From: Cornus controversa
Taxonomy: Eukaryota; Streptophyta; Magnoliopsida; Cornales; Cornaceae
DNA: 64,000 bases
NCBI GenBank assembly: GCA_026545225.1
Contig: CM048847.1
Span: 11,340,501-11,404,500 of the forward strand
Direction: 5' to 3'
Shown: positions 13,547-64,000 of the stretch, piece after piece
How positions within the stretch are numbered: position 1 is the stretch's first letter
How the letters are laid out: each line of letters opens with the position of its first letter
The notes under the pieces: generated by a model
The model's input: the letters and a program-made list of their open reading frames with translations, nothing else
The model's database searches: none
What the model was told of the DNA's origin: nothing
Program-made: the position numbers and the translations under genes

Positions 13547-14132
13547 GAGGGTGCATTCAATTAGGATTTTAAAAGAATTTAAAATTTTGGATGTATTCGA
13601 TTCAGACTTTTCAAGAGTCCATACAAATCTTGGATAGTTATGTGGCATGTTTTTTCACAAATTATATATGGGACTTTGAAATTGCTTTATTTTTAATTTA
13701 TAAGGTACTTGATAATTTAAGATCACTTCCTCATATGTTCAACTTTCATTCTGGCAGATATTGCTTAACATTCTTCGCACTGTTATGAAGAGGGATATAT
13801 GTAACTTTGTATAGGTTCTTAATCATTCTGTTGAATAATTCCAAATGGTAGAAACTATAAATAATAGTTTATCCATTTTGCATTATATTTGTCCATTGAA
13901 CCATTGTTTTACTTGTACGCAAAAATATAATTCAAGAATACAAATAATTAAAATATATTGAAGAAATCATTACAAGTTTATAAAAATTCATTAAAGTCTC
14001 TAATAGAAGTCTATACAAAATCCATGAAAGTCTTATAATAAAAATCTATAGAAATCGATGAATTCTACTTAAATTCATAGAAAGTCTGTCTCTTAAAAAA
14101 TGTCTTTTAAAATCCTGATTGAATACACTCTC
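13547..14132. mobile_element. MITE-like inverted arms, chimeric at the array edge
   Basis: The left arm begins GAGGGTGCATTCAATTAGG at 13547. The right arm, read on the minus strand from 14132, begins GAGAGTGTATTCAATCAGG. Both continue into 'attttaaaaga'. The flanks show no matching target duplication, and the interior from 13632 is the unrelated sequence that starts each tandem unit. The left arm (13547-13631) occurs only here; the right arm recurs in every unit (for example, ending at 27665). So the two arms probably come from different insertions brought together at the array breakpoint. Confidence 0.55.
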
Positions 14133-14957
14133 CTAATACTAAAAGGAGTGTATGGATTTGCACCTCTATATATATGTGTGTGTGAAGATTATAGAATCAT
14201 AAATAAACCGAAAGCTAGCTCCGTTACCTCTTTCCCTCTCTATAATTGAGAATTTGAGCTGAGGCTTTGAAACCTCAATCTTTCCTCTTTATCGTCGATC
14301 TCTATCTATTTGGGGAAGAAGGATGAGTTTGAATAGCTTCTGAAACCTCAATCCAATGGTGGGATTAGGGGACTACGGTGGTGGCGGTGGGTCCCATATT
14401 CTCCGACATCTTCTGTATATCAAGCCCATTGATTCGCTGATTGCAGTCTTCTCCGCTTGCATTTCGAGCCGAGCCTCCATGATCTAGTTCATCGGTGTTG
14501 CTTATAGCTATATTAGGATTTGCAGAGAAATTTGGAGAGACATAGAGAGCATTTCTTTGTTTTGTACAAAGGATGAAACGACGTCATTTTGTTTGAGGGT
14601 TAAAAATGTCACTTGGGATCTTTATTTAATTTCTTCATTTTTATTCTATTATAAATATATTTCTGTAATTTTATATCTTTTAATTGCTCCAACAAATGTA
14701 CTTTAGAATATTCTCTCCCTTTCTAAGTTTTTAGACTTACCCAAGTCTTTGTCTAAGTAGTTTGGGTCTCAAAGCAAGGATAAAGTGAGTCTAGTCAAGT
14801 CAAGAGAGTACAATACATAAAGTTGATTGGCTGAGTTGATTAAACTATGGTGTTGCTTTTGATCAAAATTTATAGTTGTAGACTTACCGCCCGGAGTTCA
14901 TATAGGCCAGGCAAATAAAATCTTAAAGAGATTAAATTTAATTCAAGTCTCGATCAT
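14133..14957. other. Intergenic stretch with a small plus-strand ORF
   Basis: Between the MITE arm and the first AT-rich fold-back. A GC-richer block has a 43-codon plus-strand frame at 14356-14487 (MVGLGDYGGGGGSHILRHLL...), preceded by a CT-rich leader, of no recognised family. It recurs in each unit. The remainder is AT-rich with nothing seen. Confidence 0.35.
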
Positions 14958-15113
14958 CAATTTATCAAAAAATACCGAAAAAAGAAAATAAAATACAACT
15001 TTAATTTATCAAAAAAATTTACTCAAAAAAAATAACTTTAATTCACCAATTTTTTTCTAGGTAATTTTTTTCGGTAAATTAAAATTTTTTTCTCGATATT
15101 TTTTGATAAATTG
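14958..15113. repeat. AT-rich fold-back repeat (unit 1)
   Basis: The ends are exact inverted copies (CAATTTATCAAAAAATA at the left, its complement at the right), so the 156 bp can fold into a long hairpin. Its core motif 'aactttaattYaYcaa...' recurs at about 15244-15318 and inside the element at 20568-21220. Copies lie at 28491-28646, 42021-42176 and 55541-55696. Confidence 0.65.
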
Positions 15114-15907
15114 TCATCTATATAGGATTAGTATTACATTTGAATTCCATTCCATTATAGGTACTGATGCAACAGAGCTGACTCAATAACAAAAAGTGAT
15201 TAATTTATCAAAAAATAAATAAAAAATACCCAAAAAAAAATACAACTTTAATTTGTTGAAAAAATTGACGTAAAAAAATAACTTTAACTCACCGATTTTT
15301 TTTTTTGGTAAATTAATGTTTGTGTCAGTTTGGTTTTGCTATTTTGGCATATACATATTCACGGGGTGTGGCGTTGAAAGTATGAGGGTTTTGTTTTGAG
15401 GCAGTATATATATGCACGCGAAAGATACAGATACTAGTGGTGAGAGGATAAAATATGAAGCAGGCTAGAATTCATTCCACTCATCAAGTCAATCAGCCGT
15501 TGGAGGAAAGTTCTCCTAGAAATATCTCTCGTGTTGTTTTGAAAAAGAGTCGAAGATTTGAAACAATTGGATGGAGATATGGTCTCCTAAAATTTCTTCT
15601 GGAGTTTGAAAACAGAAGACCGTGATATGCAATTAGAAGGAAGGAAAACTCATCTGGAGTTTGAAAACAGAAGGCCGTTAGATTAGGTATGTCTCTTAAT
15701 TTATATTTGTGTAAACATGCTTATAATTAGGATAAGGTTTACATGAAATTCAGATGGCAATTGAAATGTCAAGGTTAATATATTTTAATTACTGTTGTAA
15801 TATCTTAGTTAGTATCTCTTAATCATATTTAAATATATGTATGCTTGATTGTCTATTGCATGATTGATATATGTATATGTCAATTGGATTTCTTTCACTG
15901 GAAAAGG
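15114..15907. other. No gene supported
   Basis: AT-rich. It contains a second, non-palindromic copy of the 'aactttaattt' motif (about 15190-15318). At 15598-15700 there are two direct copies of a segment containing 'tctggagtttgaaaacagaag' type sequence (about 20 bases each). No ORF is convincing. Confidence 0.4.
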
Positions 15908-16096
15908 ATCTTCTCCTTGATAATTCCTCTCCATAATTTGCAGGATTTAATCCTGCGGTCAATTTTCAGTCACGTCATCATATAAAGTAAAATATATTTT
16001 AAATTTAAATTAAATGAGATGATGATGTGATTGAATTTTGACTGCGGAATTAAGTCCTCCGAAATCAAGAAAGGAGAGGAATTCTCAAAAAGAGAT
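15908..16096. mobile_element. Fold-back MITE (unit 1), 189 bp
   Basis: Left arm: atcttctccttgataattcc, then 'aggatttaatcctgcggtca' and 'cacgtcatcat'. The right arm is the inverted counterpart (gatgatgatgtga ... tgactgcggaatta ... ggagaggaattctc). A short AT spacer separates the arms. No coding content. Copies lie at 29441-29629, 42972-43160 and 56492-56680. Confidence 0.7.
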
Positions 16097-16591
16097 GTAT
16101 TCTACCTGTTTCTATTATCATTAGATGAAATGAAACGAAACGAAACGAAACAAAAAAAATAGTTGCTGCTTCTGTTTACTTTTCTTCTTCTATTTTTTCA
16201 TATTTTGATTTTCTTCACTCCAGTTATATGTGTCTTAATTCTAACATTAAAGAATTTTGAAAGATAATCTATGGAATGATTTTTTAGCCCATTATATCAA
16301 TAACAATCTGAAGCACAAAATCTGTACACTTCATAGCTCCAAGGTTAAGATAAAATGCTAACTTTCCTTCCTCTACGAAGAAACAATCCTACTCTTGAGA
16401 AGAAAATAGCCAAATTTATAATGATCAAATTAAGCAATCAAATGAAATTCACTGCAATGCTAAGTATAATTAATGCATGATCGGTACTAAAGTGTAATAC
16501 AACAAGACTTCAAACTTGAGAGATAGAGATTCCTTCACCCACCTCTCCACAACATCTTTTTTCTTTTCTTGGAGGACATAATGGAACACAT

Positions 16592-17414
16592 TTATGCGAA
16601 ATTCTTAACCACAAACAACATTTCAATTTCTGCTTCAATAACTATAGTATCATCCACTATGAAGCCCTTTGAATTGTCATAGAGTTCACTTAGAGACACT
16701 AATCTTGGGCATCCCAAGATCCTCATCGTGTCAAAGAAGAAGACATTAACTGCAAAGATAAATTTTAAAGGAAAATAAGAAGAAAAGATCACCATATACA
16801 AAAGGAAAAGCTATAGCTACAAGCAAGTTCATCAAAATGAAGGTACTATTTTTACCTTCTTGTTCGATGTGTTTGAAATTGACTTGGTCCCTTATCCTCA
16901 ACTTGTATTTTGCATTCAGTTTGGAGTTAAGAGAGAAATTTTCAGAATCAGGTACTGCAAGTAACAGAGATAGGTTTTTGCCCTTCTCATTTACATTTCC
17001 TTCGGGATAGAGCAAAAGCTTCCTGAATTCATTATAAACAAACACATAAATAACAGCCATTTATCAAAAAAGCTAGCCTGTTTCAGATTGAGAACAACCA
17101 AGTTTAAGGAATGCGTGAAAATGTTGATCTTACCAGTTCCGTCCTCCGATGTTAAACTCTTCAGAGTAATAACATTCTCCACTTAATGATGATAATTTAT
17201 CAACCTTCCAAGTGTAAACTCTGTTAGTTACTATCTTTGTCATGGACAGACACTCACCTTTGCTTACAGATTTTATAACAAAAACCTCTGCTCCAAATAA
17301 ACATGTGTCATCTATGAGGTATCCATTTAAAGGGTTTTGAAACTTTTCAAGAGAGAGAAATTTGTCAAAACCCCATTCAGTCTTCATCACATGGAAGCGC
17401 CTTACTTGAGCATC

Positions 17415-17452
<38 letters not shown>

Positions 17453-18045
17453 TAGATAGATATGAATCAATAAATACTTTCTTGCACTAGCTGATTTCAA
17501 AATTTTTACTATACTATAATAGGAACTACCTTCCATAGCGAAGTACTTGTCGCGTATATGATCATAGACGAATAATTTAAAGTTCACATTCACCTCCCAA
17601 CCACAAGGAAGATTTTCTGAATCGGTTAATACAAGGTATAGTGAAATGTGATCTTTCCCATTTCTTTTCAAGTTCCCATTTGGATAGAAAGACAATTTCC
17701 TAAAAATCCAAAAAATAGACAGATACGAATAAATTAGTTTTGATGTAGAAATATGGATGAATTAAGAATATGGAAGATACAAAAAAATCCCAAAAACACA
17801 CCATTTGTAGCCACCAGCTTCAAAAACATCTGATTTATAATTTTCAAAATTTGTTTCTAGAAGCATAGAGAAACACTCTATCCTGAAAATGTAATGTGAT
17901 GGTTGAACATCCCGCAATGTTGTTCTAATTTCTGCAACAGATTGAAGGCAGACAAATATTTAACATAACTAGAACACATTGTATATCAAAATCATATAAA
18001 GGGAAAATAACAATAATAAATAAACTTACCAATGTCAGTCAACAT
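16592..18045 (-). CDS. Double MATH-domain protein, gene A copy 1 (306 aa, six exons)
   Basis: CDS: complement(join(16592..16749, 16856..17022, 17134..17413, 17530..17699, 17802..17931, 18030..18045)), 921 bases, every junction GT-AG and in phase. The protein starts MLTDIEIRTTLRDVQPSHY. MATH domain 1 spans about residues 19-152, with VFEAGGYKW, LSFYPNG, RRFHVMKTEWGFDKF and GYLIDDTCLFGAEVFV. KGECLSM links to MATH domain 2 (about 171-299), with TWKVDKLSSL, LLLYPEGN, KYKLRIRDQV and GFIVDDTIVIEAEI. This is the usual layout and length of plant MATH-only proteins related to the N-terminal part of UBP12/13. MATH domains bind peptide motifs in partner proteins; the partner here is unknown. No catalytic, BTB or clear coiled-coil part is present. 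The start was chosen by homology with gene B (a similarly short intron 1). All four tandem copies appear to encode the same protein. Confidence 0.9.
17421..17463. repeat. TA/GATA microsatellite in intron 3 of gene A
   Basis: A (TA)n run plus short GATA repeats lie just inside the acceptor of exon 4. The pure AT run is 29, 29, 25 and 31 bases in copies 1 to 4, so it is length-variable. It lies where the polypyrimidine tract of the acceptor would be. Confidence 0.85.
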
Positions 18046-18138
18046 TTCTTCTGCATAATCTACATTGAAGGAATTAATAAAAATTGTCTTGTAGGTGGAT
18101 TTATTGGTTATAACTTCTGTTAGGCTTAGGCTTACATG

Positions 18139-18151
18139 GTTATATATATAA
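18139..18151 (-). promoter_or_regulatory. TATA box of gene A
   Basis: A 'tatatatata' run lies about 95-105 bases upstream of the MLTDI start codon, the same spacing as the TATA regions of gene B and the orphan exon. The first AUG after a start site about 30 bases downstream would be the chosen one. Confidence 0.45.
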
Positions 18152-18196
18152 GGATGGTTGACTAATAACTTCGGAATATCTTATCAAAAAAAATAA

Positions 18197-18364
18197 GAAT
18201 AATGATTTGGAGGCCGATCGGACTAATCCGATTTTATTTTTATGTGAGTGGAGTGGTGGGTCTTACCATATGATCTCATGGTGATATAATGTGGTGAGAC
18301 CCATCATTACACTCACATAAAACTATTTTCAACCTAATTCGATTTGAACTCTCTATCATTATTC
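18197..18364. mobile_element. Fold-back MITE in the gene A upstream region (unit 1), 168 bp
   Basis: The ends are GAATAATGAT and ATCATTATTC. Inner arms 'ttttatgtgagtg...gggtct' and 'agaccca...cactcacataaaa' pair across a short loop. It splits upstream sequence that is continuous in gene 0 ('aataactttggaatact'), with similar pieces on both sides here. Copies lie at 31730-31897, 45257-45424 and 58783-58950. Confidence 0.65.
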
Positions 18365-18943
18365 AAAAAATAATAATAATAACTTTGGGAATACTAAAAG
18401 CCCCAGTGGAACTATTTTTTTATGTTTTGAAGTTCTCTGCCTAAAGTAAACTAAACCTTTTCATCTTGTGCATGTGTATGTATCTAACAAATGCAATTTG
18501 GGATGTGATCATTACTTCACTTCACTTGCACTCACTTTGAATGTCAAATGACATGATCATCCTTAATTTAGTTATTAAGTCATGAGAATGAAGTATGAGG
18601 GGGCATTTATGTCCTTTAGGTTTTAAAAAAACAAATAACGAGTGGGATATTCATTTTTAACATAATTAGAGAGAAATTCTAATCAGGTTTTCAAAAATAA
18701 TTTTCAAGAACTCGAAGAACTGTCCTTTTTTTGACTGAATTTTCAAAAATTAGTTTTAAAAAAGTGTCAATCAAACATACTTTTTTAAAGTTAATATTTT
18801 GAAAAACAAAAAAGTTTCTTTGAAAACTGAACCAAATATACTCTAAACTTTCCACAATGTTTGTGTGCATGTATATATATATATATATAAAATTTTTGAA
18901 TCATGTAATTTAAAGATTAAAACAAGATATGCAGATAACTTAC

Positions 18944-18971
18944 CAACAGCAGGAGCAGCACCGTGAGACAT
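18944..18971 (-). other. Orphan or alternative MATH-type first exon
   Basis: A 28-base exon reads ATG then codons for SHGAAPAV and ends in phase 1 at a consensus donor (gtaagtta). That is the same length, phase and donor as exon 1 of gene B (MSSEIIDTV). A TATA run (19067-19075) lies about 100 bases upstream. No MATH exon 2 of its own follows before the exons of gene A. Splicing to exon 2 of gene A (17931) would keep the frame and replace MLTDI with MSHGAAPAV. It could be an alternative promoter and N-terminus or the leftover of a deleted gene. Copies lie in units 2-4 (for example 32477-32504). Confidence 0.5.
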
Positions 18972-19075
18972 CTCTAATATTTTTGGTGATTAATTATGCC
19001 GGGTTTAGGTAACAAAGCTGATACCAAGGATTCCTATACCTGAAGAATCCATCGATTTAAATCCAGATATATATA

Positions 19076-20567
19076 GTAGATGCCAAAAGTCTTATATCAA
19101 TAACACTGTACGAATTGCTTTTGAACGACATAACCAGTACTACTGAAAGTATGAAATCCCTTTTCCAACTTTTAACAACTTGCTTTTTCTTATAATTTTG
19201 TACCAAAATTTGATTATTAGTGGTGTATATGCATGTATCGATGAGGGAAGAATCTTTACATTCCATTTACAAACAAATAAAAAAAAAATCCTTTCTTCAC
19301 TAGTAATGCTTCTCTCCAAGTTATTCTAAAACTAAAGTAGTGATTTGAAGGAAGAAGATATTTTTCTTCTTTTAAGTGCGTAAGCATGTGAGTGGATGTT
19401 TGAACTTGTTCCTAATTTTGAGTTGAGTTTAATTATACATTGAAAAAAATAAAAAGAAAATATGTGAAATCAATAATATCAGACATTTCCTATTTATATA
19501 AATGTTAATTTATTATTTTCGGTTAAATATATAAATGTTAATTGCATAACTCAAAATTTTTGCATCTATATCGTCCAAGTACTAATTTTTTAGTACATAA
19601 CCATCCTCAACTATAAAAATTTTTGCAACACCGAACATCATATTTTTATACCAATTGTTATAAGAAGCCTTTCATAATTATACAAGGTCTGATTAGAAGT
19701 GCTAAAATGAGTGGAACGAAGGGCTTTAGAGGGGGGAAAAGTGGGTGGAAAATATCACCACAATTAGACTTATTAGCTTAGCTAAAGTTTTGCTTGCCCA
19801 GATGAATATGGAACCCTAGCTCTAATAGAAGGCACTGCAACCACGCAATAAAGTTAGAGCTCTCCCAAAATAAAAAAAATAAAAGATCAAATCATGAACT
19901 GTTTTGAATTTTGACTATGTTCTCAATAAAGGCAAAAAATTAAGCAAAACCTAAATGTGTTCCATGAATTAATTATAATACACACCCAACTTAAAATTAA
20001 TATATATAACAGTTTACTTACCTTATTTCAAGTTCAAAAACTTGTGTCACTAGATGTGAAATAATATTTTTGAGGCCGGATTGTTGACAATCTTTTTATC
20101 TGTCAATATATATATATAACTTAAATCAATCATATAAATCAATATAAAAAATTGGGAATATATAGCTTACCTAGTTGTTGCAATGGTGTATCCTTATGGA
20201 GATGGTTGAATGAATTGACTCACAGCTGATAGCTTTAATTTATATCACTGAAGAAAAAAACAATTAAAGAGTACATTTTATATACAAGTTAGACGATGCT
20301 TAATTACCCCCAAAAAAAAGTTATAGAAGATGCTTTCCAAACTAATTTGCATAGATTGTAAAGAAAAGATATTGATAAGAGAAGAATCTTTCAAAAACAG
20401 ATATATGTTTCTGTTGTCGATACTTTTCATTTACAAATAATAATTCCTTTCTTGGCCGGATAATGCATATGGAACATTCACTCCTTCCCCCAAGTTATTC
20501 TAAAGCTAAGTTAGGGATTTGAAGGAAGAAGAAGCTTTTCTTCTGTGAGAGTTTGTTATTAAATTTA
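19076..20567. other. Intergenic stretch with a decayed duplicate of the orphan promoter
   Basis: No gene is supported. The blocks 18937-19365 and about 20165-20545 are diverged copies of each other. Both have a donor (cttacc on the plus strand) and share a downstream block including 'aagttattctaaa' and 'gatttgaaggaagaaga'. The second copy has no ATG at the exon position. The 69-codon minus frame at 19057-19266 lies in the promoter region and looks spurious. Confidence 0.45.
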
Positions 20568-21220
20568 GGCTAAAGTGCAATAAACTCTCATATGATTTTA
20601 AAATGGTGCACAATACTCCCTTCTTTTTTTGGGTGCAACAAACTCCTTCCAACTCACAAATTGGTGCAATTTGCTCATATTTGCATTAAAAATTGACTTC
20701 AAATAACAAAAATTCCCTCACAAATAAATAAAATACTGATTAATTTGCAAAAAATACCCAAAAAATTACCCAAAAAAGCAAGAACTTTAATTTGTCGAAA
20801 AAATTTACCAAAAAAAAAGAACTTTAATTCACCAATTTCTTTTCTGTAAATTTAATTAATTTGGTAATACCGAAACAAATTATCGAAAAATACCAAAAAA
20901 AGTACTTTACTTTGTCAAAAATTACGAAAAAAGTTACGAAAAAATATTGAAATAAATTTACTGAAAAATTGATGAATTAAATTTCTTTTTTTGGGGTAAT
21001 TTTTTTCGGTAATTTCTTTTTGTATTTTGGAGTAAAGTAATCATTTTTTTATTTTTGAGGGTATTTTTGTCATTTTAAGTCAATTTTTAATCCAAATAGT
21101 GCTAAATAGGAACAAATTGCACTAATTTATAAGTTAGAGGGTGTTTGTTGCACCCAAAAAAAGGAAAGGAGATATTGTGCACCATTTTCAAATCAGAAAA
21201 AAAATTATTTCACTTTGGCC
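20568..21220. mobile_element. Long-TIR element (unit 1), 653 bp
   Basis: Inverted arms of roughly 180-200 bases. The left starts GGCTAAAGTGCAATAA; the right, on the minus strand, starts GGCCAAAGTGAAATAA. Both contain 'atggtgcacaata', 'gggtgcaacaaac', 'gtgcaattt' and 'ttaaaaattgactt'. The centre is the AT-rich 'actttaattt' motif sequence also found at 14958-15318. No transposase and no clear target duplication. The arm style (several sub-repeats) resembles the Mutator-like element at 9958. Copies lie at 34101-34753, 47628-48280 and 61154-61806. Confidence 0.7.
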
Positions 21221-21485
21221 AATCTTTTATATCAATCATAATTCTTAGGTGCAGCAAGTTAAAAAAATAAAAACGGAATTGGAGAGCAAGTTATAAAAAA
21301 AAATGAAAAAGAAAAAGAAAATGGGTAAGAGATTGGAGAGCAAGTTATAAGCTTATAACCTTTGTAATCCTACTTTCCTTAGCCAGGATGTCAACTCAAA
21401 ATATCTGCCATATCCACCACATCCCACGGTCGCCACCTCCTGCTACCGTCACCTTCTTTCTTCTCTCCTATAGTATGATTTTAAG

Positions 21486-21523
<38 letters not shown>

Positions 21524-23466
21524 CACTTTATTTTATGGATGCATTCTGCAGCCTTGATATATACATTTTCTAACACAGCTTTCTATGTACAAAGCTCTTC
21601 GTTATTGTATGTAGTCAGAGATGGTTTTATGGATGCATTCTACAGCCTTGATATATACATTTTCTAGCTATTGTTGTTCATAAAGTGTGTGTATAAAACA
21701 AATAGTTGGTGTGGATGGTGTGGTCTCGTATGCAATTTCATGATATGCAGGACCAAGAGTAACTGATTTGCAGCTTGTATTAAATAGTGTTGCAGGAGGG
21801 GCTTAATCATCTAATCTACATAGATCTCCACAGTTTTGGACATGTAATTGAAAACTTTGTTCTTAAGCCCTATATTTTCTCCATTCAAGAACACTCTATT
21901 TTATTGGAAAGGTGTCAAATTTGTTGAATTCTACCTTTATTATTATGCAGTATGTATATGAAATTGATTTTTTTTTCAGTTCAAATGGCTGCATTTACAG
22001 TTCCTATTTCATCTATATGGATCCGGTGTATGTGAGACGGGTATGTGTATCATGTTCTTGCTTGCTGGAAGTTGTACCTTCATAGCTTCAATTAAATATG
22101 GTACTCTTTGTGAATACCAGTTAATTTCTATTAATATCACGTACCAAAAAAATTCTCCTAATATCCAAGAGCCTTTTAATGGAGGAGACTAATTACTTTC
22201 TTTCTAGAGTCGCTTCTTTTAAGTTGTAAAGCATCCTTCAATTGCATTGCTAGAATTTGTGACTTGAATATTGTTTGTTATGGTATTATTTTTTTATTGA
22301 ATTTTGAAAAGTCATAAGCTAAAAATCAGGTGGTTTGATTAATGAAAGATCTAAGAGATGTGCTTCAGATAGAGGTGGTTGATAGTCAAGTTGAGTAATT
22401 TTTTACTTTTTATTTAAAAATTTTCAAGTTGATTAGTTGCAAATTGTATTTTTAATGTGATTGAAGGTTAGTTTTTAATAGATGAATTAAAAATTAAAAA
22501 CAAAATTGTGCAACAAATGTGTTAATATACACTATTTTTGATTTTTTGTTCTCAAAAATGTAGAAACAGCAAGTTTTAATGAACGATATTTCTATTTTTT
22601 GTTTTCACTCAGAAAAACAGAAATATATTTCTATTTTTTTTTAGCGCAGAAACAAAAAATATTTTTGTTAGTAAACGCTGCCCACACAAGACTCTATCCT
22701 GATTAGTTGTCACAACGAATCAAAGTTTAGGTTTACACGATGCCAAGTGTAATTGGGGGGGGGGGGGGGTAGTTCTGTTGGCATATTTCATATGCATCTT
22801 CATGATCCTCTTTTAAGGGCAGAGATCGAACTTATTGTGCCTTGATATATTCTCTTCATCACATTTGGAAGGATCTTATTATTTAAATAATTAAAATATT
22901 TTTTGTGTTGGGATATTTGCCCCCTCCAAGCCTGTATACTTGAAAAGGTGTCATTGGACTGATGTCGCACACAATAATGTGTTGTTCCTTGGCTTCTATA
23001 TTCAATTAATTCTCATTCAAATTCAAATCTAATAAAAAAAATTGGTTTTCATTGAATGATATTCAAAAAGAAAAGCATGCATGCTTTAAAGAATTTAGAA
23101 TGACACATTTATTAGATCCACCCACCTGTTTATTTGTCAATCATAATTCTAAGGTGGAGCAATGAGAGTGTTAAAAAGAAAGTGAAAAGAAAAAGAAAAA
23201 GGGGAAGATATTGGAGAGAGAGCTGAAGACACTAATATATATATAAATGATGGTTAGACTGTGTCTTATGCATCTGGTATAAATCAGTGAGTGTGAACAT
23301 GCAGGGTGTGAAGTGCTGCCTTGTTCTAAGAGAGAATGAACTCCACTGCAGTGCTAATTATAATGATCAGAACTAAAGGGTACAAGATGGTTTAACATTG
23401 AGGGATTCCTTTACACAACTCTACTTATATAGTTTCTTTTTCTTTGAAGATATAGTGGAACACTTT
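21221..23466. other. Intergenic stretch between the long-TIR element and gene B
   Basis: No gene is supported. It holds a TA microsatellite (about 21488-21519), whose length differs between units, and a 42-base direct repeat at 21531-21572 and 21625-21666 with about one mismatch. There is a region rich in short inverted T/A runs (about 22480-22690) that may be a decayed MITE, then a poly-G tract (22755-22769). The plus-strand frame at 21388-21573 runs into the TA repeat and looks spurious. Confidence 0.5.
22755..22769 (+). repeat. Poly-G tract, 15 G
   Basis: An uninterrupted G run in otherwise AT-rich DNA. The length differs in each unit: 15 here, 14 at 36286-36299, 11 at 49809-49819 and 20 at 63333-63352. 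Confidence 0.95.
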
Positions 23467-25597
23467 TTAACTGAAGTTCTTAATCGCAGACAACATTGAA
23501 ATTTCTGCTTCAATAATTATAGTATCATTGACTATGAAGCCCTTTGATATATCATGGAGATCACTCAGACACATGAAGCTTCGGTATCCCCAGCCCCTTC
23601 TATTGGCACCGAACCAGACACTAACTGCAAAAATGAATTTTGAAGTAAAATTAACAAAAATTAAAAAAAACACCATAAGAAGAAAAAGAAGAAAAGATTG
23701 AATCCCTCTACAAAATAAAAAGCTGCAGCCTCAACCAAGTTCATCAAAAGCAGCTGAGAATACAAATATAACTTTTACCTTCATTTTCAAGGTGTTCACC
23801 ATTGACTTGGTCCTTTATCCTAAGCTTGTATTTTGCAAACAGTTTGGTGAGTTTAAGAGAGAGTTTTTCAGAATCAGCTACTACAAGATGCAGAAACAGT
23901 GATAGGCTTTCACCTTTCGGCTTTGAATTTCCTTTGGGCCAGAGAGAAAGCTTCCTGAATTCAGTATAAGAATACACAAATAATAGCTTACCTTAGAAAT
24001 CAAATAAGTCTGTTTCAATTTGAAAACAACTAAATTTAAGAAAAATATGAAAATGATCATCTTACCAGTTCTGTCATCTAGTGTTAAACTTCTCAGAGTA
24101 AAGACATTCTTCACTTAATGCTGAAAATTTATCAATCTTCCAAGTGCAAACCTCGTCGTTTGGTACCTTTGTCATGGACAGACACTCACCTTTGAGAGTA
24201 GATCTCATAACAAAAACCTCTGCCCCGAATAAACATGTGTCATCTACTAGGTACCCATTTAAAGGATTTAGGAACTGACGCCGGACAGAGTAGTGATAAT
24301 TATGTAGGCTAAGGGCAACAGAAAATAAACAGAAAGAAAGCACGAGAATTGCCCAAAAACTCAGAGAAAAGGCTCTGATATTCAATATTATTATTCAAAA
24401 TCAAAAGTACCTTCGGATCAACCCACAAGCCGGGTTATATAGCTGAACTTCATCAACATTACCAAAAATAGCAAAAACCTAATATTCTTGCCAAAATAAA
24501 ATACGAAATAAAAGAAGTTGCCAGAATTCTGGCCTAAATCAAGCCCAGAATCTCTTCCTAATCAACAAAATAAATATTACCAAAAAAGGAAATAAAATAA
24601 CTAAAATTAGGGATTCGGAGGGGAAAACAGTGGATTTTGGCCTTTAAAAAATACAAACCCAGCTATAGCTAGGTGCCCACGACGTGCGCGCCGAACTAAG
24701 CTTACCGAATTGTGGTCATAAAGGTGATTCTGACACCTGTACCCAAAGTTATGGCTAAAATACTGAAGCGCATCCAAAAATACCCACATTGGTGACAAGG
24801 TCACGGTTTCCTGCCATCTTTATGCTGATCTACCAACTCATGATATTTCAGTGCCATCAACGTGTCGTCTAACAGCTTAGCATCATCTGACTCGGATGCT
24901 CCAGCATCAGGAACTCTTCGAGAGAGAGAAATTTCTCAAAGCCAAATTCAGTATTCATTACATGGAAGCGCCTTACTGGTTTAGCATCTACATATATAGA
25001 TAATGTATTGATTTGTAAATATTGTGTTCCAATAGCAGATTTTAGAATATTTAATGTATAATAAAAGGAGCTACCTTCGATAGTTAAGTACTTATCACGT
25101 ATATGATCAAAGACGAATAATTTAAAGTTCACATTCGCCTCCCAACCACAAGGAAGATTATCTGCATCAGATATTACCAAGTACATTGAAATGTGATCCT
25201 TCACATTTCTTTTCTTATTCCCATTTGGATAGACAGACAATTTCCTGAAAACCCAAAAAATAAATAGTTAGATACAAATAAATTAACTTTGAGTTGGAAA
25301 TATGAATAAATTCATAGCACGGGAGATGAAAAAATAGTCCATGAACACACCATTTATAGCCACCAACTTCAAAAACATCGGATTCACAATTTTCAATTGT
25401 TGTTTCGAGAAACAGAGAGAGACTCTATCTTGAAAATGCAATGCGTTGGTTGGACATCACGCAATGTTCTTTTAACTTCTCCTACAGATTTTTAATGGAA
25501 GAAAATACTTAAAATCACCAAAACTCATTGTATATAAAATCATGCAAGGGAGTATAAAATTTAACTTACCAACTGTGTCGATTATTTCAGACGACAT
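23467..25597 (-). pseudogene. MATH-domain gene B copy 1, broken
   Basis: Same six-exon plan as gene A: exon 1 25570-25597 (MSSEIIDTV), exon 2 25351-25481, exon 3 25075-25244, exon 4 split (24066-24275 and 24910 to about 24973), exon 5 23779-23954, exon 6 23467-23624. Splice sites are kept. Three defects are shared by all copies. First, a missing CT unit in the CT run of exon 2 shifts the frame (131 bases, where 133 would stay in phase). Second, TGA stands where gene A has GGA near the end of exon 4 (FNIGG becomes FNTR-stop). Third, a solo LTR lies in exon 4 between EEF and NPLNGYLVDDTC. The family motifs GGYKW, SVYPNG, RRFHVMNTEFGF and DDTCLFGAEVFV remain readable, so decay is recent. Confidence 0.8.
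24271..24914 (-). mobile_element. Solo LTR in exon 4 of gene B (unit 1), 634 bp
   Basis: The element is 24276-24909. On the minus strand it begins TGATGCTGGAGC and ends CCGGCGTCA, so it has TG...CA ends with a short inverted match. It is flanked by the direct repeat GGAAC at 24271-24275 and 24910-24914. A TATA region (gctatataacccgg on the minus strand) fits an LTR. There is no internal region, so it is a solo LTR fossil. The insertion predates the tandem amplification, since copies lie at 37806-38439 and 51326-51959. Superfamily not assigned. Confidence 0.75.
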
Positions 25598-25697
25598 TGC
25601 TTCAACAGAATAAAAAATGAAGTAAAAATAACCTCTTTTGGTTTTATTGGTGATGGCTTCTGCTAAGCTTAGATTGTATGAAGTAAAGGACTCCATG

Positions 25698-25711
25698 CTT
25701 TTATATAGATA
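25698..25711 (-). promoter_or_regulatory. TATA box of gene B
   Basis: The minus strand reads ctatataaaag, a canonical plant TATA box, about 105 bases upstream of the gene B ATG. It is conserved in position with gene A. Confidence 0.5.
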
Positions 25712-25804
25712 CATATATGCGCACGCTCGCCCATGTAGACCAATCCGGATGGTTCAATAATAACTTTGTAATACAAACAATTCATCTAGAAATACTAAAA
25801 GCCA

Positions 25805-26294: not shown

Positions 26295-26387
26295 CTGAAA
26301 ATCCAAAATACATATATATGATTAATTTAGCTTTCATAAAGAGAACATAGATAAATTAAAGAGTGGGGAAGAAAAAATCACTCAAAC

Positions 26388-30947: not shown

Positions 30948-30985
<38 letters not shown>

Positions 30986-52647: not shown

Positions 52648-52854
52648 TGCTTCAACAGAATAAAAAATGAAGTAAAAATAACCTCTTTTGGTTTTATTGG
52701 TGATGGCTTCTGCTAAGCTTAGATTGTATGAAGTAAAGGACTCCATGCTTTTATATAGATACATATATGCGCACGCTCGCCCATGTAGACCAATCCGGAT
52801 GGTTCAATAATAACTTTGTAATACAAACAATTCATCTAGAAATACTAAAAGCCA

Positions 52855-53344
52855 TCTTGGAAAAGATATTCTTTACTTGATGCTGAAAAATTGTCAATCT
52901 TCCAAGTATAAACTTTGTCAGTTGAAACCTGAAACCTTTGTCATGGATAAACACTCACCTTTGCCTGCTCCAAATACGCAAGTATCATCTATGAGGTAGC
53001 CATTTGAAGGATTGTGGAACTCTTTGAGAGAGAAATTTCTCAAAACCCCATTTAGTTTTCATCCTATGGAAGTGCCATACTAGTTCAGTATCTACATTAT
53101 ATATGGATGTCATCTATATAAATAAATATTATGTTGCTACAACAGATTTTTGGAAATTTAATGTGAAATAATAATAAATAAATAAAAGTACTTGTCACAT
53201 ACATGATCAAACGCAAACAACTTAAAGTTCACCTTAGCTTTCCAACCACAACACAAATATTTCGCAATATGTATTTCAAGGTATAAAGAGATGTGACCAT
53301 TCCCATTTCTTTTCTTATTCCCATTTGGGTAGAAACACAATTTC
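52855..53344 (-). pseudogene. MATH gene C fragment (copy 3)
   Basis: Same as 25805-26294, with one private base change near 52981. Confidence 0.8.
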
Positions 53345-54120
53345 CTGAAAATCCAAAATACATATATATGATTAATTTAGCTTTCATAAAGAGAACATAG
53401 ATAAATTAAAGAGTGGGGAAGAAAAAATCACTCAAACCTGTTTTAGGAACCAGAGAGGGGTGATTAAGTTTACTCGTTTTTTACTTAATTTTTTAAATTA
53501 TTTTAATTTTAAGTCCAATTAAAAATTAAACTAATTCCACAAAACAAGTAAATAAAATAAAGTAAAAATGCACCAGATATATGTGAAAAATTCAAATCGA
53601 GAAAAACCACGGGTAAGGCTTTATAACTCCGGAGAACCAAATCCACTATCGTCGAAAAAAAATATAAGAGACTCTATCCCAGATTGACACCCACTCCACT
53701 TTGAAAATAACTTGATGCAGAATGCCTCAGGCTTACAATTGCACTCCTTTATCTAATTGTTGGACGCTTTCGGTTAACGTTACAATCATTGCAGAAGGGT
53801 AACTAGAAGACCACGAACACTCAGCAAGTATTCTGTTCCCTTCGTAGTGTGATCTTCTTCTCATTCCTAATGAACGAACAGTTGTAGAAGAAATCAAACA
53901 GAAAAGACCCTTGCTGTCCTGCCAGAATGGAAGGAAAGTTCAACTCTTATTCTGTTCAAAGACATTAATATAACTACTATTCCTTACCTTCCATTACTTT
54001 CAAGTTTTATTAATTAGATGTAAGTCTAATTGGTTTTTAATAGCACTGGGGGACTATTGAGATGGGTATCAATAATTAAATTGTTCCTTATTAGTATTGT
54101 TGTTTGTGTTCCATATCCTT

Positions 54121-54279
54121 ATGTCTGTGGCTTTGGTGGTGGCATACATGGGGTACTTGACCGTGATTAATGAAACTACTTTTTATGGAATGGTTTGCTT
54201 TTTTCTATACAACGGGATAGTTATGTGGCATGTTTTTTCACAAATTATATATGGGACTTTGAAATTGCTTTATTTTTAA
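54121..54279 (+). other. Membrane-type small ORF across the unit 3/4 junction
   Basis: Same as 27071-27229. Confidence 0.3.
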
Positions 54280-55540
54280 TTTATAAGGTACTTGATAATT
54301 TAAGATCACTTCCTCATATGTTCAACTTTCATTCTGGCAGATATTGCTTAACATTCTTCGCACTGTTATGAAGAGGGATATATGTAACTTTGTATAGGTT
54401 CTTAATCATTCTGTTGAATAATTCCAAATGGTAGAAACTATAAATAATAGTTTATCCATTTTGCATTATATTTGTCCATTGAACCATTGTTTTACTTGTA
54501 CGCAAAAATATAATTCAAGAATACAAATAATTAAAATATATTGAAGAAATCATTACAAGTTTATAAAAATTCATTAAAGTCTCTAATAGAAGTCTATACA
54601 AAATCCATGAAAGTCTTATAATAAAAATCTATAGAAATCGATGAATTCTACTTAAATTCATAGAAAGTCTGTCTCTTAAAAAATGTCTTTTAAAATCCTG
54701 ATTGAATACACTCTCCTAATACTAAAAGGAGTGTATGGATTTGCACCTCTATATATATGTGTGTGTGAAGATTATAGAATCATAAATAAACCGAAAGCTA
54801 GCTCCGTTACCTCTTTCCCTCTCTATAATTGAGAATTTGAGCTGAGGCTTTGAAACCTCAATCTTTCCTCTTTATCGTCGATCTCTATCTATTTGGGGAA
54901 GAAGGATGAGTTTGAATAGCTTCTGAAACCTCAATCCAATGGTGGGATTAGGGGACTACGGTGGTGGCGGTGGGTCCCATATTCTCCGACATCTTCTGTA
55001 TATCAAGCCCATTGATTCGCTGATTGCAGTCTTCTCCGCTTGCATTTCGAGCCGAGCCTCCATGATCTAGTTCATCGGTGTTGCTTATAGCTATATTAGG
55101 ATTTGCAGAGAAATTTGGAGAGACATAGAGAGCATTTCTTTGTTTTGTACAAAGGATGAAACGACGTCATTTTGTTTGAGGGTTAAAAATGTCACTTGGG
55201 ATCTTTATTTAATTTCTTCATTTTTATTCTATTATAAATATATTTCTGTAATTTTATATCTTTTAATTGCTCCAACAAATGTACTTTAGAATATTCTCTC
55301 CCTTTCTAAGTTTTTAGACTTACCCAAGTCTTTGTCTAAGTAGTTTGGGTCTCAAAGCAAGGATAAAGTGAGTCTAGTCAAGTCAAGAGAGTACAATACA
55401 TAAAGTTGATTGGCTGAGTTGATTAAACTATGGTGTTGCTTTTGATCAAAATTTATAGTTGTAGACTTACCGCCCGGAGTTCATATAGGCCAGGCAAATA
55501 AAATCTTAAAGAGATTAAATTTAATTCAAGTCTCGATCAT

Positions 55541-55696
55541 CAATTTATCAAAAAATACCGAAAAAAGAAAATAAAATACAACTTTAATTTATCAAAAAAA
55601 TTTACTCAAAAAAAATAACTTTAATTCACCAATTTTTTTCTAGGTAATTTTTTTCGGTAAATTAAAATTTTTTTCTCGATATTTTTTGATAAATTG
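55541..55696. repeat. AT-rich fold-back repeat (unit 4)
   Basis: Same as 14958-15113. Confidence 0.65.
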
Positions 55697-56491
55697 TCAT
55701 CTATATAGGATTAGTATTACATTTGAATTCCATTCCATTATAGGTACTGATGCAACAGAGCTGACTCAATAACAAAAAGTGATTAATTTATCAAAAAATA
55801 AATAAAAAATACCCAAAAAAAAATACAACTTTAATTTGTTGAAAAAATTGACGTAAAAAAATAACTTTAACTCACCAATTTTTTTTTTTTGGTAAATTAA
55901 TGTTTGTGTCAGTTTGGTTTTGCTATTTTGGCATATACATATTCACGGGGTGTGGCGTTGAAAGTATGAGGGTTTTGTTTTGAGGCAGTATATATATGCA
56001 CGCGAAAGATACAGATACTAGTGGTGAGAGGATAAAATATGAAGCAGGCTAGAATTCATTCCACTCATCAAGTCAATCAGCCGTTGGAGGAAAGTTCTCC
56101 TAGAAATATCTTTCGTGTTGTTTTGAAAAAGAGTCGAAGATTTGAAACAATTGGATGGAGATATGGTCTCCTAAAATTTCTTCTGGAGTTTGAAAACAGA
56201 AGACCGTGATATGCAATTAGAAGGAAGGAAAACTCATCTGGAGTTTGAAAACAGAAGGCCGTTAGATTAGGTATGTCTCTTAATTTATATTTGTGTAAAC
56301 ATGCTTATAATTAGGATAAGGTTTACATGAAATTCAGATGGCAATTGAAATGTCGAGGTTAATATATTTTAATTACTGTTGTAATATCTTAGTTAGTATC
56401 TCTTAATCATATTTAAATATATGTATGCTTGATTGTCTATTGCATGATTGATATATGTATATGTCAATTGGATTTCTTTCACTGGAAAAGG

Positions 56492-56680
56492 ATCTTCTCC
56501 TTGATAATTCCTCTCCATAATTTGCAGGATTTAATCCTGCGGTCAATTTTCAGTCACGTCATCATATAAAGTAAAATATATTTTAAATTTAAATTAAATG
56601 AGATGATGATGTGATTGAATTTTGACTGCGGAATTAAGTCCTCCGAAATCAAGAAAGGAGAGGAATTCTCAAAAAGAGAT
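56492..56680. mobile_element. Fold-back MITE (unit 4)
   Basis: Same as 15908-16096. Confidence 0.7.
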
Positions 56681-57175
56681 GTATTCTACCTGTTTCTATT
56701 ATCATTAGATGAAATGAAACGAAACGAAACGAAACAAAAAAAATAGTTGCTGCTTCTGTTTACTTTTCTTCTTCTATTTTTTCATATTTTGATTTTCTTC
56801 ACTCCAGTTATATGTGTCTTAATTCTAACATTAAAGAATTTTGAAAGATAATCTATGGAATGATTTTTTAGCCCATTATATCAATAACAATCTGAAGCAC
56901 AAAATCTGTACACTTCATAGCTCCAAGGTTAAGATAAAATGCTAACTTTCCTTCCTCTACGAAGAAACAATCCTACTCTTGAGAAGAAAATAGCCAAATT
57001 TATAATGATCAAATTAAGCAATCAAATGAAATTCACTGCAATGCTAAGTATAATTAATGCATGATCGGTACTAAAGTGTAATACAACAAGACTTCAAACT
57101 TGAGAGATAGAGATTCCTTCACCCACCTCTCCACAACATCTTTTTTCTTTTCTTGGAGGACATAATGGAACACAT

Positions 57176-57998
57176 TTATGCGAAATTCTTAACCACAAAC
57201 AACATTTCAATTTCTGCTTCAATAACTATAGTATCATCCACTATGAAGCCCTTTGAATTGTCATAGAGTTCACTTAGAGACACTAATCTTGGGCATCCCA
57301 AGATCCTCATCGTGTCAAAGAAGAAGACATTAACTGCAAAGATAAATTTTAAAGGAAAATAAGAAGAAAAGATCACCATATACAAAAGGAAAAGCTATAG
57401 CTACAAGCAAGTTCATCAAAATGAAGGTACTATTTTTACCTTCTTGTTCGATGTGTTTGAAATTGACTTGGTCCCTTATCCTCAACTTGTATTTTGCATT
57501 CAGTTTGGAGTTAAGAGAGAAATTTTCAGAATCAGGTACTGCAAGTAACAGAGATAGGTTTTTGCCCTTCTCATTTACATTTCCTTCGGGATAGAGCAAA
57601 AGCTTCCTGAATTCATTATAAACAAACACATAAATAACAGCCATTTATCAAAAAAGCTAGCCTGTTTCAGATTGAGAACAACCAAGTTTAAGGAATGCGT
57701 GAAAATGTTGATCTTACCAGTTCCGTCCTCCGATGTTAAACTCTTCAGAGTAATAACATTCTCCACTTAATGATGATAATTTATCAACCTTCCAAGTGTA
57801 AACTCTGTTAGTTACTATCTTTGTCATGGACAGACACTCACCTTTGCTTACAGATTTTATAACAAAAACCTCTGCTCCAAATAAACATGTGTCATCTATG
57901 AGGTATCCATTTAAAGGGTTTTGAAACTTTTCAAGAGAGAGAAATTTGTCAAAACCCCATTCAGTCTTCATCACATGGAAGCGCCTTACTTGAGCATC

Positions 57999-58038
<40 letters not shown>

Positions 58039-58631
58039 TAGATAGATATGAATCAATAAATACTTTCTTGCACTAGCTGATTTCAAAATTTTTACTATAC
58101 TATAATAGGAACTACCTTCCATAGCGAAGTACTTGTCGCGTATATGATCATAGACGAATAATTTAAAGTTCACATTCACCTCCCAACCACAAGGAAGATT
58201 TTCTGAATCGGTTAATACAAGGTATAGTGAAATGTGATCTTTCCCATTTCTTTTCAAGTTCCCATTTGGATAGAAAGACAATTTCCTAAAAATCCAAAAA
58301 ATAGACAGATACGAATAAATTAGTTTTGATGTAGAAATATGGATGAATTAAGAATATGGAAGATACAAAAAAATCCCAAAAACACACCATTTGTAGCCAC
58401 CAGCTTCAAAAACATCTGATTTATAATTTTCAAAATTTGTTTCTAGAAGCATAGAGAAACACTCTATCCTGAAAATGTAATGTGATGGTTGAACATCCCG
58501 CAATGTTGTTCTAATTTCTGCAACAGATTGAAGGCAGACAAATATTTAACATAACTAGAACACATTGTATATCAAAATCATATAAAGGGAAAATAACAAT
58601 AATAAATAAACTTACCAATGTCAGTCAACAT
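57176..58631 (-). CDS. Double MATH-domain protein, gene A copy 4 (306 aa)
   Basis: CDS: complement(join(57176..57333, 57440..57606, 57718..57997, 58116..58285, 58388..58517, 58616..58631)). Intron 3 is two bases longer than in copy 1 because of the TA run. The exons look unchanged. Confidence 0.9.
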
Positions 58632-58782
58632 TTCTTCTGCATAATCTACATTGAAGGAATTAATAAAAATTGTCTTGTAGGTGGATTTATTGGTTATAAC
58701 TTCTGTTAGGCTTAGGCTTACATGGTTATATATATAAGGATGGTTGACTAATAACTTCGGAATATCTTATCAAAAAAAATAA

Positions 58783-58950
58783 GAATAATGATTTGGAGGC
58801 CGATCGGACTAATCCGATTTTATTTTTATGTGAGTGGAGTGGTGGGTCTTACCATATGATCTCATGGTGATATAATGTGGTGAGACCCATCATTACACTC
58901 ACATAAAACTATTTTCAACCTAATTCAATTTGAACTCTCTATCATTATTC
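58783..58950. mobile_element. Fold-back MITE upstream of gene A (unit 4)
   Basis: Same as 18197-18364, with one base change near its right end. Confidence 0.65.
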
Positions 58951-59529
58951 AAAAAATAATAATAATAACTTTGGGAATACTAAAAGCCCCAGTGGAACTA
59001 TTTTTTTATGTTTTGAAGTTCTCTGCCTAAAGTAAACTAAACCTTTTCATCTTGTGCATGTGTATGTATCTAACAAATGCAATTTGGGATGTGATCATTA
59101 CTTCACTTCACTTGCACTCACTTTGAATGTCAAATGACATGATCATCCTTAATTTAGTTATTAAGTCATGAGAATGAAGTATGAGGGGGCATTTATGTCC
59201 TTTAGGTTTTAAAAAAACAAATAACGAGTGGGATATTCATTTTTAACATAATTAGAGAGAAATTCTAATCAGGTTTTCAAAAATAATTTTCAAGAACTCG
59301 AAGAACTGTCCTTTTTTTGACTGAATTTTCAAAAATTAGTTTTAAAAAAGTGTCAATCAAACATACTTTTTTAAAGTTAATATTTTGAAAAACAAAAAAG
59401 TTTCTTTGAAAACTGAACCAAATATACTCTAAACTTTCCACAATGTTTGTGTGCATGTATATATATATATATATAAAATTTTTGAATCATGTAATTTAAA
59501 GATTAAAACAAGATATGCAGATAACTTAC

Positions 59530-59557
59530 CAACAGCAGGAGCAGCACCGTGAGACAT
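59530..59557 (-). other. Orphan or alternative first exon (unit 4)
   Basis: Same as 18944-18971. Confidence 0.5.
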
Positions 59558-61153
59558 CTCTAATATTTTTGGTGATTAATTATGCCGGGTTTAGGTAACA
59601 AAGCTGATACCAAGGATTCCTATACCTGAAGAATCCATCGATTTAAATCCAGATATATATAGTAGATGCCAAAAGTCTTATATCAATAACACTGTACGAA
59701 TTGCTTTTGAACGACATAACCAGTACTACTGAAAGTATGAAATCCCTTTTCCAACTTTTAACAACTTGCTTTTTCTTATAATTTTGTACCAAAATTTGAT
59801 TATTAGTGGTGTATATGCATGTATCGATGAGGGAAGAATCTTTACATTCCATTTACAAACAAATAAAAAAAAAATCCTTTCTTCACTAGTAATGCTTCTC
59901 TCCAAGTTATTCTAAAACTAAAGTAGTGATTTGAAGGAAGAAGATATTTTTCTTCTTTTAAGTGCGTAAGCATGTGAGTGGATGTTTGAACTTGTTCCTA
60001 ATTTTGAGTTGAGTTTAATTATACATTGAAAAAAATAAAAAGAAAATATGTGAAATCAATAATATCAAACATTTCCTATTTATATAAATGTTAATTTATT
60101 ATTTTCGGTTAAATATATAAATGTTAATTGCATAACTCAAAATTTTTGCATCTATATCGTCCAAGTACTAATTTTTTAGTACATAACCATCCTCAACTAT
60201 AAAAATTTTTGCAACACCGAACATCATATTTTTATACCAATTGTTATAAGAAGCCTTTCATAATTATACAAGGTCTGATTAGAAGTGCTAAAATGAGTGG
60301 AACGAAGGGCTTTAGAGGGGGGAAAAGTGGGTGGAAAATATCACCACAATTAGACTTATTAGCTTAGCTAAAGTTTTGCTTGCCCAGATGAATATGGAAC
60401 CCTAGCTCTAATAGAAGGCACTGCAACCACGCAATAAAGTTAGAGCTCTCCCAAAATAAAAAAAATAAAAGATCAAATCATGAACTGTTTTGAATTTTGA
60501 CTATGTTCTCAATAAAGGCAAAAAATTAAGCAAAACCTAAATGTGTTCCATGAATTAATTATAATACACACCCAACTTAAAATTAATATATATAACAGTT
60601 TACTTACCTTATTTCAAGTTCAAAAACTTGTGTCACTAGATGTGAAATAATATTTTTGAGGCCGGATTGTTGACAATCTTTTTATCTGTCAATATATATA
60701 TATAACTTAAATCAATCATATAAATCAATATAAAAAATTGGGAATATATAGCTTACCTAGTTGTTGCAATGGTGTATCCTTATGGAGATGGTTGAATGAA
60801 TTGACTCACAGCTGATAGCTTTAATTTATATCACTGAAGAAAAAAACAATTAAAGAGTACATTTTATATACAAGTTAGACGATGCTTAATTACCCCCAAA
60901 AAAAAGTTATAGAAGATGCTTTCCAAACTAATTTGCATAGATTGTAAAGAAAAGATATTGATAAGAGAAGAATCTTTCAAAAACAGATATATGTTTCTGT
61001 TGTCGATACTTTTCATTTACAAATAATAATTCCTTTCTTGGCCGGATAATGCATATGGAACATTCACTCCTTCCCCCAAGTTATTCTAAAGCTAAGTTAG
61101 GGATTTGAAGGAAGAAGAAGCTTTTCTTCTGTGAGAGTTTGTTATTAAATTTA

Positions 61154-61806
61154 GGCTAAAGTGCAATAAACTCTCATATGATTTTAAAATGGTGCACAAT
61201 ACTCCCTTCTTTTTTTGGGTGCAACAAACTCCTTCCAACTCACAAATTGGTGCAATTTGCTCATATTTGCATTAAAAATTGACTTCAAATAACAAAAATT
61301 CCCTCACAAATAAATAAAATACTGATTAATTTGCAAAAAATACCCAAAAAATTACCCAAAAAAGCAAGAACTTTAATTTGTCGAAAAAATTTACCAAAAA
61401 AAAAGAACTTTAATTCACCAATTTCTTTTCTGTAAATTTAATTAATTTGGTAATACCGAAACAAATTATCGAAAAATACCAAAAAAAGTACTTTACTTTG
61501 TCAAAAATTACGAAAAAAGTTACGAAAAAATATTGAAATAAATTTACTGAAAAATTGATGAATTAAATTTCTTTTTTTGGGGTAATTTTTTTCGGTAATT
61601 TCTTTTTGTATTTTGGAGTAAAGTAATCATTTTTTTATTTTTGAGGGTATTTTTGTCATTTTAAGTCAATTTTTAATCCAAATAGTGCTAAATAGGAACA
61701 AATTGCACTAATTTATAAGTTAGAGGGTGTTTGTTGCACCCAAAAAAAGGAAAGGAGATATTGTGCACCATTTTCAAATCAGAAAAAAAATTATTTCACT
61801 TTGGCC
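61154..61806. mobile_element. Long-TIR element (unit 4)
   Basis: Same as 20568-21220. Confidence 0.7.
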
Positions 61807-63332
61807 AATCTTTTATATCAATCATAATTCTTAGGTGCAGCAAGTTAAAAAAATAAAAACGGAATTGGAGAGCAAGTTATAAAAAAAAATGAAAAAGAAA
61901 AAGAAAATGGGTAAGAGATTGGAGAGCAAGTTATAAGCTTATAACCTTTGTAATCCTACTTTCCTTAGCCAGGATGTCAACTCAAAATATCTGCCATATC
62001 CACCACATCCCACGGTCGCCACCTCCTGCTACCGTCACCTTCTTTCTTCTCTCCTATAGTATGATTTTAAGATTATATATATATATATATATATATAAAC
62101 TCACTTTATTTTATGGATGCATTCTGCAGCCTTGATATATACATTTTCTAACACAGCTTTCTATGTACAAAGCTCTTCGTTATTGTATGTAGTCAGAGAT
62201 GGTTTTATGGATGCATTCTACAGCCTTGATATATACATTTTCTAGCTATTGTTGTTCATAAAGTGTGTGTATAAAACAAATAGTTGGTGTGGATGGTGTG
62301 GTCTCGTATGCAATTTCATGATATGCAGGACCAAGAGTAACTGATTTGCAGCTTGTATTAAATAGTGTTGCAGGAGGGGCTTAATCATCTAATCTACATA
62401 GATCTCCACAGTTTTGGACATGTAATTGAAAACTTTGTTCTTAAGCCCTATATTTTCTCCATTCAAGAACACTCTATTTTATTGGAAAGGTGTCAAATTT
62501 GTTGAATTCTACCTTTATTATTATGCAGTATGTATATGAAATTGATTTTTTTTTCAGTTCAAATGGCTGCATTTACAGTTCCTATTTCATCTATATGGAT
62601 CCGGTGTATGTGAGACGGGTATGTGTATCATGTTCTTGCTTGCTGGAAGTTGTACCTTCATAGCTTCAATTAAATATGGTACTCTTTGTGAATACCAGTT
62701 AATTTCTATTAATATCACGTACCAAAAAAATTCTCCTAATATCCAAGAGCCTTTTAATGGAGGAGACTAATTACTTTCTTTCTAGAGTCGCTTCTTTTAA
62801 GTTGTAAAGCATCCTTCAATTGCATTGCTAGAATTTGTGACTTGAATATTGTTTGTTATGGTATTATTTTTTTATTGAATTTTGAAAAGTCATAAGCTAA
62901 AAATCAGGTGGTTTGATTAATGAAAGATCTAAGAGATGTGCTTCAGATAGAGGTGGTTGATAGTCAAGTTGAGTAATTTTTTACTTTTTATTTAAAAATT
63001 TTCAAGTTGATTAGTTGCAAATTGTATTTTTAATGTGATTGAAGGTTAGTTTTTAATAGATGAATTAAAAATTAAAAACAAAATTGTGCAACAAATGTGT
63101 TAATATACACTATTTTTGATTTTTTGTTCTCAAAAATGTAGAAACAGCAAGTTTTAATGAACGATATTTCTATTTTTTGTTTTCACTCAGAAAAACAGAA
63201 ATATATTTCTGTTTTTTTTTAGCGCAGAAACAAAAAATATTTTTGTTAGTAAACGCTGCCCACACAAGACTCTATCCTGATTAGTTGTCACAACGAATCA
63301 AAGTTTAGGTTTACACGATGCCAAGTGTAATT

Positions 63333-63352
63333 GGGGGGGGGGGGGGGGGGGG
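63333..63352 (+). repeat. Poly-G tract, 20 G
   Basis: Unit 4 counterpart of 22755-22769, the longest of the four. Confidence 0.95.
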
Positions 63353-64000
63353 TAGTTCTGTTGGCATATTTCATATGCATCTTCATGATCCTCTTTTAAG
63401 GGCAGAGATCGAACTTATTGTGCCTTGATATATTCTCTTCATCACATTTGGAAGGATCTTATTATTTAAATAATTAAAATATTTTTTGTGTTGGGATATT
63501 TGCCCCCTCCAAGCCTGTATACTTGAAAAGGTGTCATTGGACTGATGTCGCACACAATAATGTGTTGTTCCTTGGCTTCTATATTCAATTAATTCTCATT
63601 CAAATTCAAATCTAATAAAAAAAATTGGTTTTCATTGAATGATATTCAAAAAGAAAAGCATGCATGCTTTAAAGAATTTAGAATGACACATTTATTAGAT
63701 CCACCCACCTGTTTATTTGTCAATCATAATTCTAAGGTGGAGCAATGAGAGTGTTAAAAAGAAAGTGAAAAGAAAAAGAAAAAGGGGAAGATATTGGAGA
63801 GAGAGCTGAAGACACTAATATATATATAAATGATGGTTAGACTGTGTCTTATGCATCTGGTATAAATCAGTGAGTGTGAACATGCAGGGTGTGAAGTGCT
63901 GCCTTGTTCTAAGAGAGAATGAACTCCACTGCAGTGCTAATTATAATGATCAGAACTAAAGGGTACAAGATGGTTTAACATTGAGGGATTCCTTTACACA

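Follow-up and report, generated by a model that had tools for sequence, protein, structure and literature searches.

A near-perfect 13.5-kb tandem array carrying a double-MATH gene in Cornus controversa, with substitutions that resemble methyl-cytosine decay

Introduction

A link between the MATH-only genes of plants and susceptibility or resistance to viruses is described in the apricot work (PMC5787289). Three described systems are closest to the locus reported here. In Brassica rapa 30 class-I (double) MATH-only proteins are recorded in the family survey, in which RTM3, of the type with a MATH domain plus a coiled-coil region, is placed in class IV (PMC3664471). The Solanaceae have tandem MATH clusters, for example StMATH04-08 and StMATH11-14 in potato (PMC10218331). 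In the apricot MATHd cluster containing ParPMC1 and ParPMC2, silencing of an intact gene by the broken paralogue beside it has been proposed (PMC5787289, PMC12238093).

The present locus was found in a stretch of 64,000 nucleotides, referred to below as the window. Its intact gene, gene B, encodes a protein that, like the class-I proteins of B. rapa, has two tandem MATH domains and no other recognised domain, and its 306 residues are comparable with the 286 to 443 residues of the class-I proteins among the rows of that survey compared (PMC3664471). The likeness is one of domain content: here, unlike B. rapa class I as that survey presents it, one gene has been amplified together with about 12 kb of its surroundings at more than 99.7% identity. 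With the apricot cluster it shares tandem MATH-only genes, intact beside broken, but the apricot accounts give paralogues that are 87.5% identical, the broken one carrying a 5-bp deletion (PMC5787289, PMC12238093), whereas here the intact copies are identical to one another and the broken paralogue, disrupted by a solo LTR and by a stop, is 81.7% identical to the intact gene in DNA over 574 aligned sites in the first part of the genes. The potato clusters, too, consist of multiple-MATH-domain genes grown by tandem duplication; these are separately named genes, and the sections of that account dealing with them do not mention a uniform 13.5-kb repeat (PMC10218331). Among the matches listed in literature searches on array copy-number variation, recent plant arrays, and MATH clusters and family expansion, none describes this array in its title or the start of its abstract, which is no proof of absence.

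Results and discussion

Self-comparison of the window revealed a head-to-tail array that extends from 13632 to the window end at 64000 (Table 1). In self-BLAST, 13632-50467 matched 27165-64000 with 99.88% identity (36,852 aligned letters, of which 11 mismatched and 32 were gaps), 13632-36947 matched 40695-64000 with 99.82%, and 13632-23417 matched 54215-64000 with 99.78%. The top three 24-mer lags in the window were 13533, 13520 and 13530, and the repeat signal is far beyond chance. The copy number is at least 3.72, as the window edge cuts the fourth copy and the right end of the array and its right flank lie outside the window. An earlier note, made from the letters of this DNA, had described a near-perfect 13.5-kb tandem amplification of more than 3.7 copies; self-BLAST, 24-mer lags and alignment of the copies all bear out its coordinates, periods and copy number.

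Table 1 Features of the array and its left flank (positions in the window)
Feature	Position	Strand	Remarks and basis
Array unit copy 1	13632..27164	.	13,533 bp; self-BLAST and alignment
Array unit copy 2	27165..40694	.	13,530 bp; zero private substitutions; self-BLAST and alignment
Array unit copy 3	40695..54214	.	13,520 bp; self-BLAST and alignment
Array unit copy 4	54215..64000	.	first 9,786 bp, ends at window end; self-BLAST and alignment
Gene B copy 1	16592..18045	-	intact, six exons, GT-AG introns, 306 aa; splice model made by hand
Gene B copy 2	30125..31578	-	identical CDS
Gene B copy 3	43656..45105	-	identical CDS
Gene B copy 4	57176..58631	-	identical CDS
TA-rich run, gene B intron 3	17415..17463	.	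length varies among copies
Paralogue A, pseudogene	23467..25600	-	solo LTR insertion and in-frame stop; reading frames, MATH_2 matches of pieces, tblastn
Solo LTR within paralogue A	24276..24909	-	634 bp, TG...CA ends, 5-bp target duplication
MATH fragment C, pseudogene	25738..26326	-	within unit; Pfam MATH_2 and tblastn
MATH fragment D	9277..9928	-	left of array, not amplified; self-BLAST, Pfam, tblastn
Inverted-repeat (MITE-like) element	13534..14145	.	arms 13534-13576 and 14103-14145; left edge of array (13632) inside
Second inverted-repeat (MITE-like) element	20553..21235	.	within unit; arm pairs I1-I3

The joins at 27165, 40695 and 54215 show no differences among them over 300 bp on either side. 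Three identical joins imply a single founding breakpoint that was later multiplied. The sequence upstream of 13632 differs from that upstream of copies 2 to 4, which is the unit end. This bears on the possibility that the assembly laid down one locus, or two alleles, repeatedly and that the private differences are sequencing or consensus errors, as the very high identity between copies would allow. The join at 27165 links the end of a unit to a start that is preceded by other sequence at 13632, and at least two copies must therefore exist, unless the join is chimeric or derives from a circle.

The left edge of the array falls inside an inverted-repeat (MITE-like) element whose 43-nt terminal inverted repeats are 79% complementary; no clear target-site duplication was seen by eye at its ends. 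The left arm stands before copy 1 and is absent before copies 2 to 4. As these are preceded by the unit end instead, copy 1 seems to retain its original left surroundings. An origin from an excised circle that was amplified by rolling-circle replication and then reinserted, in place of unequal crossing-over, would fit both the identical joins at three places and the very low divergence, and part of an earlier study deals with the excision of circles from tandem repeats in plants (PMC2869330). The left flank, however, holds the other arm of the inverted repeat right up to 13632, with copy 1 apparently in its original place. Return from a circle is thus possible but less simple than duplication in place, and is considered unlikely.

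For duplication in place, the first event would have been illegitimate joining within the MITE-like element, which linked the right end of the unit to its left start. Homology as the basis of this first step was considered and rejected: the two 80-bp stretches that precede 13632 and 27165 align with a score of 13, which was reached by 74% of 300 shuffles. True microhomology at the founding join would be read from the right flank, beyond the window end. The later copies would most likely stem from unequal crossing-over between the 13.5-kb repeats, or from replication slippage among them.

The coding sequence of gene B is identical in all four copies. Its protein matched Pfam MATH_2 with E=2.6e-69 in two passing stretches, giving two MATH domains, and the earlier note was right to place one intact double-MATH gene in each unit, as judged from the splice model and this match. 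Three Pfam families matched at E up to 0.1, all of them MATH models; at this threshold no further recognised domain was found, including a BTB domain after the MATH domains. The best match to a solved structure was a Speckle-type POZ protein chain, in its MATH part (E=8.2e-12). A MATH-BTB (BPM) identity was rejected, no BTB family being among the Pfam matches and the Speckle-type POZ matches being confined to the MATH part. The array presumably raises the dosage of a single MATH-only protein, a predicted protein-binding adaptor by family.

Changes specific to the gene B branch were found at 21/309 exon and 16/152 intron sites, with 7, 5 and 9 at the three codon positions; on the branch of paralogue A they were found at 14/309 exon and 16/152 intron sites. 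Gene B is intact, yet by these counts its branch would not clearly have been under strong constraint. Sites that differ between A and B, counted at the three codon positions (51/300, 50/302 and 60/301), likewise give no sign of strong constraint. By eye, the last exon of gene B (16592-16749) diverges from paralogue A near the W-G-(F/Y) stretch that is usual in the second MATH domain.

Paralogue A and fragment C are present in all three full units; the visible part of copy 4 stops before paralogue A. The solo LTR has no internal retroelement region, MATH exon sequence resuming directly on both sides. In the alignment, where the coordinates used for A made its row stop at the edge of the LTR, fragments C and D are uninterrupted at the LTR position. 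Self-BLAST (matches over 250 bp) found no other copies of this LTR in the window outside the array. DNA identities, taken over sites aligned in the first part of the genes, were 0.817 for A-B, 0.791 for A-D, 0.774 for B-D, 0.747 for C-D, 0.721 for B-C and 0.713 for A-C. The occurrence of fragment C in the unit and of fragment D to its left points to an older MATH cluster. The unit is a slice of this decaying cluster, comprising an intact double-MATH gene, an LTR-broken paralogue and a fragment.

Ten further frames of the unit and ten of the left flank, selected from 50 and 55 listed frames, gave no Pfam match at the curated cut-off; weak matches below it (E 0.06 to 0.33) were seen for 2/10 and 3/10 respectively. 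Four more frames had no Pfam match. ARAGORN found no tRNA genes in the window and there were no Rfam matches in 1-27400. A minus-strand frame at 7861-8094 resembles, by eye, the tail of a plant transposase; no Pfam family matched it at an E of 1 or below.

The four-way alignment of the copies contains 10 substitution columns; at three of these (10268, 12308 and 13206) the comparison covers copies 1 to 3, copy 4 having ended before them. Private substitutions number three in copy 1, none in copy 2, three in copy 3 and three in copy 4, so that 9/10 occur in a single copy; the remaining variant is common to copies 3 and 4 (a 2:2 column). The copies also differ in the length of four simple runs, two of them of TA, one of G and one of T. 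Pairwise divergence ranges from 3/13,530 (copies 1 and 2) to 6/9,778 (copies 1 and 4), or 2.2e-4 to 6.1e-4. The control rate in one mutation-accumulation study, in its reported figures, is 5.28e-9 single-nucleotide variants per site per generation (PMC8145854). With this rate, which may not be that of the host, and assuming no gene conversion, the copies would be some 21,000 to 58,000 generations old, to an order of magnitude only.

None of the 10 substitutions lies within gene B, which says little because the gene makes up only about 1/10 of the unit. Two are in pseudogene sequence, at 23891 (paralogue A) and 25931 (fragment C), and the remaining 8 are elsewhere in the unit. Four of the 10 columns fall within about 860 bp at 14911-15771, where short repeats are also present. 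The G run near 22755 (unit position 9124) has from 11 to 20 Gs, a different length in each of the four copies.

With the commoner base taken as ancestral, and G at the 2:2 column, all 10 substitutions are G:C to A:T; the 2:2 column adjoins the T run of variable length and was polarised in favour of this pattern. Three are in CG, five in CHG and two in CHH context. CG and CHG thus account for 8/10, against 20.1% of the cytosines in the unit (P=8.2e-5). As a control, the older divergence was examined on the branches of A and B, polarised by C and D: only 16/67 changes are G:C to A:T (Fisher P=4.8e-6 against 10/10). Among these, 5/15 with known context (one more was without) are in CG or CHG, compared with 8/10 (P=0.029), and against the older divergence by itself the context enrichment is modest. 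Multiple hits cause the spectra of old divergence to be misread in part. CpG depletion does not distinguish the unit, with observed/expected ratios of 0.49 inside it and 0.39 in the left flank.

For the control lines of a mutation-accumulation study in Arabidopsis, an excess of methylation is given at those CG and CHG bases that had mutated, with P=0.08 for CHH (PMC8145854). The simplest reading of the spectrum is that the substitutions are real germline mutations in DNA that would have been methylated at CG and CHG. Their bias argues that the copies are real, and their resemblance to methyl-cytosine decay suggests that much of the array is methylated, a reading drawn from 10 substitutions only. 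A genome-wide CG/CHG bias of young plant mutations may make the 8/10 weaker evidence for the array in particular.

All four length differences lie in homopolymer or TA runs, which are error-prone, as would be expected if one locus had been assembled several times over. The private substitutions in copies 1, 3 and 4 and the variant of copies 3 and 4, on the other hand, are all G:C to A:T and mostly in CG or CHG, which is a biological spectrum, and repeated assembly of one locus is considered highly unlikely. The earlier note had described scattered substitutions and simple-repeat length changes between the copies, as the alignment confirms, and had cited the private substitutions against an assembly artefact; their spectrum strengthens that argument. 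Its proposal of a very recent segmental duplication multiplying an intact double-MATH gene is supported by the identical joins, the low divergence and the identical coding sequences.

Nanopore assemblies may contain base-calling errors at methylated cytosines. Such errors in a real array would likewise favour methylated contexts, and could produce private G:C to A:T differences of which 8/10 are in CG or CHG. Miscalling of a methylated site, however, would affect all copies alike if methylation did not vary among them, and 9/10 changes are confined to one copy. This origin is extremely improbable, and true mutation is preferred.

Conclusions

It is very probable that the locus is a real, young segmental tandem array, formed as proposed above, and its substitutions suggest methylation of much of it. 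The gene family and the intron structure indicate that the window is nuclear DNA of a plant. Decay of methylated cytosines after its formation would have left the G:C to A:T changes. The decay spectrum is the new part; otherwise the array is a fresh case of something known, namely a MATH cluster of a plant enlarged by recent tandem segmental duplication. Its outcome would be extra doses of one putative MATH-only adaptor, unless methylation silences the copies. By analogy, if CG and CHG methylation has been present in the array from its origin onwards, the joint amplification of an intact gene and a broken paralogue about 82% identical to it might make a self-silencing, dose-variable locus, where the would-be silencer increases in number along with the gene. 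Such a locus would be like that proposed for ParPMC2/ParPMC1 in apricot, differing in the uniform array found here, and is distinctly unlikely.

Tandem copying is one route by which the MATH family grows, and this array catches the process very early, with the founding join and the left breakpoint still legible. With so few new mutations, past methylation may be readable from the sequence alone. If the copy number of the array varies, it would provide a natural test of whether amplification raises expression or silences it.
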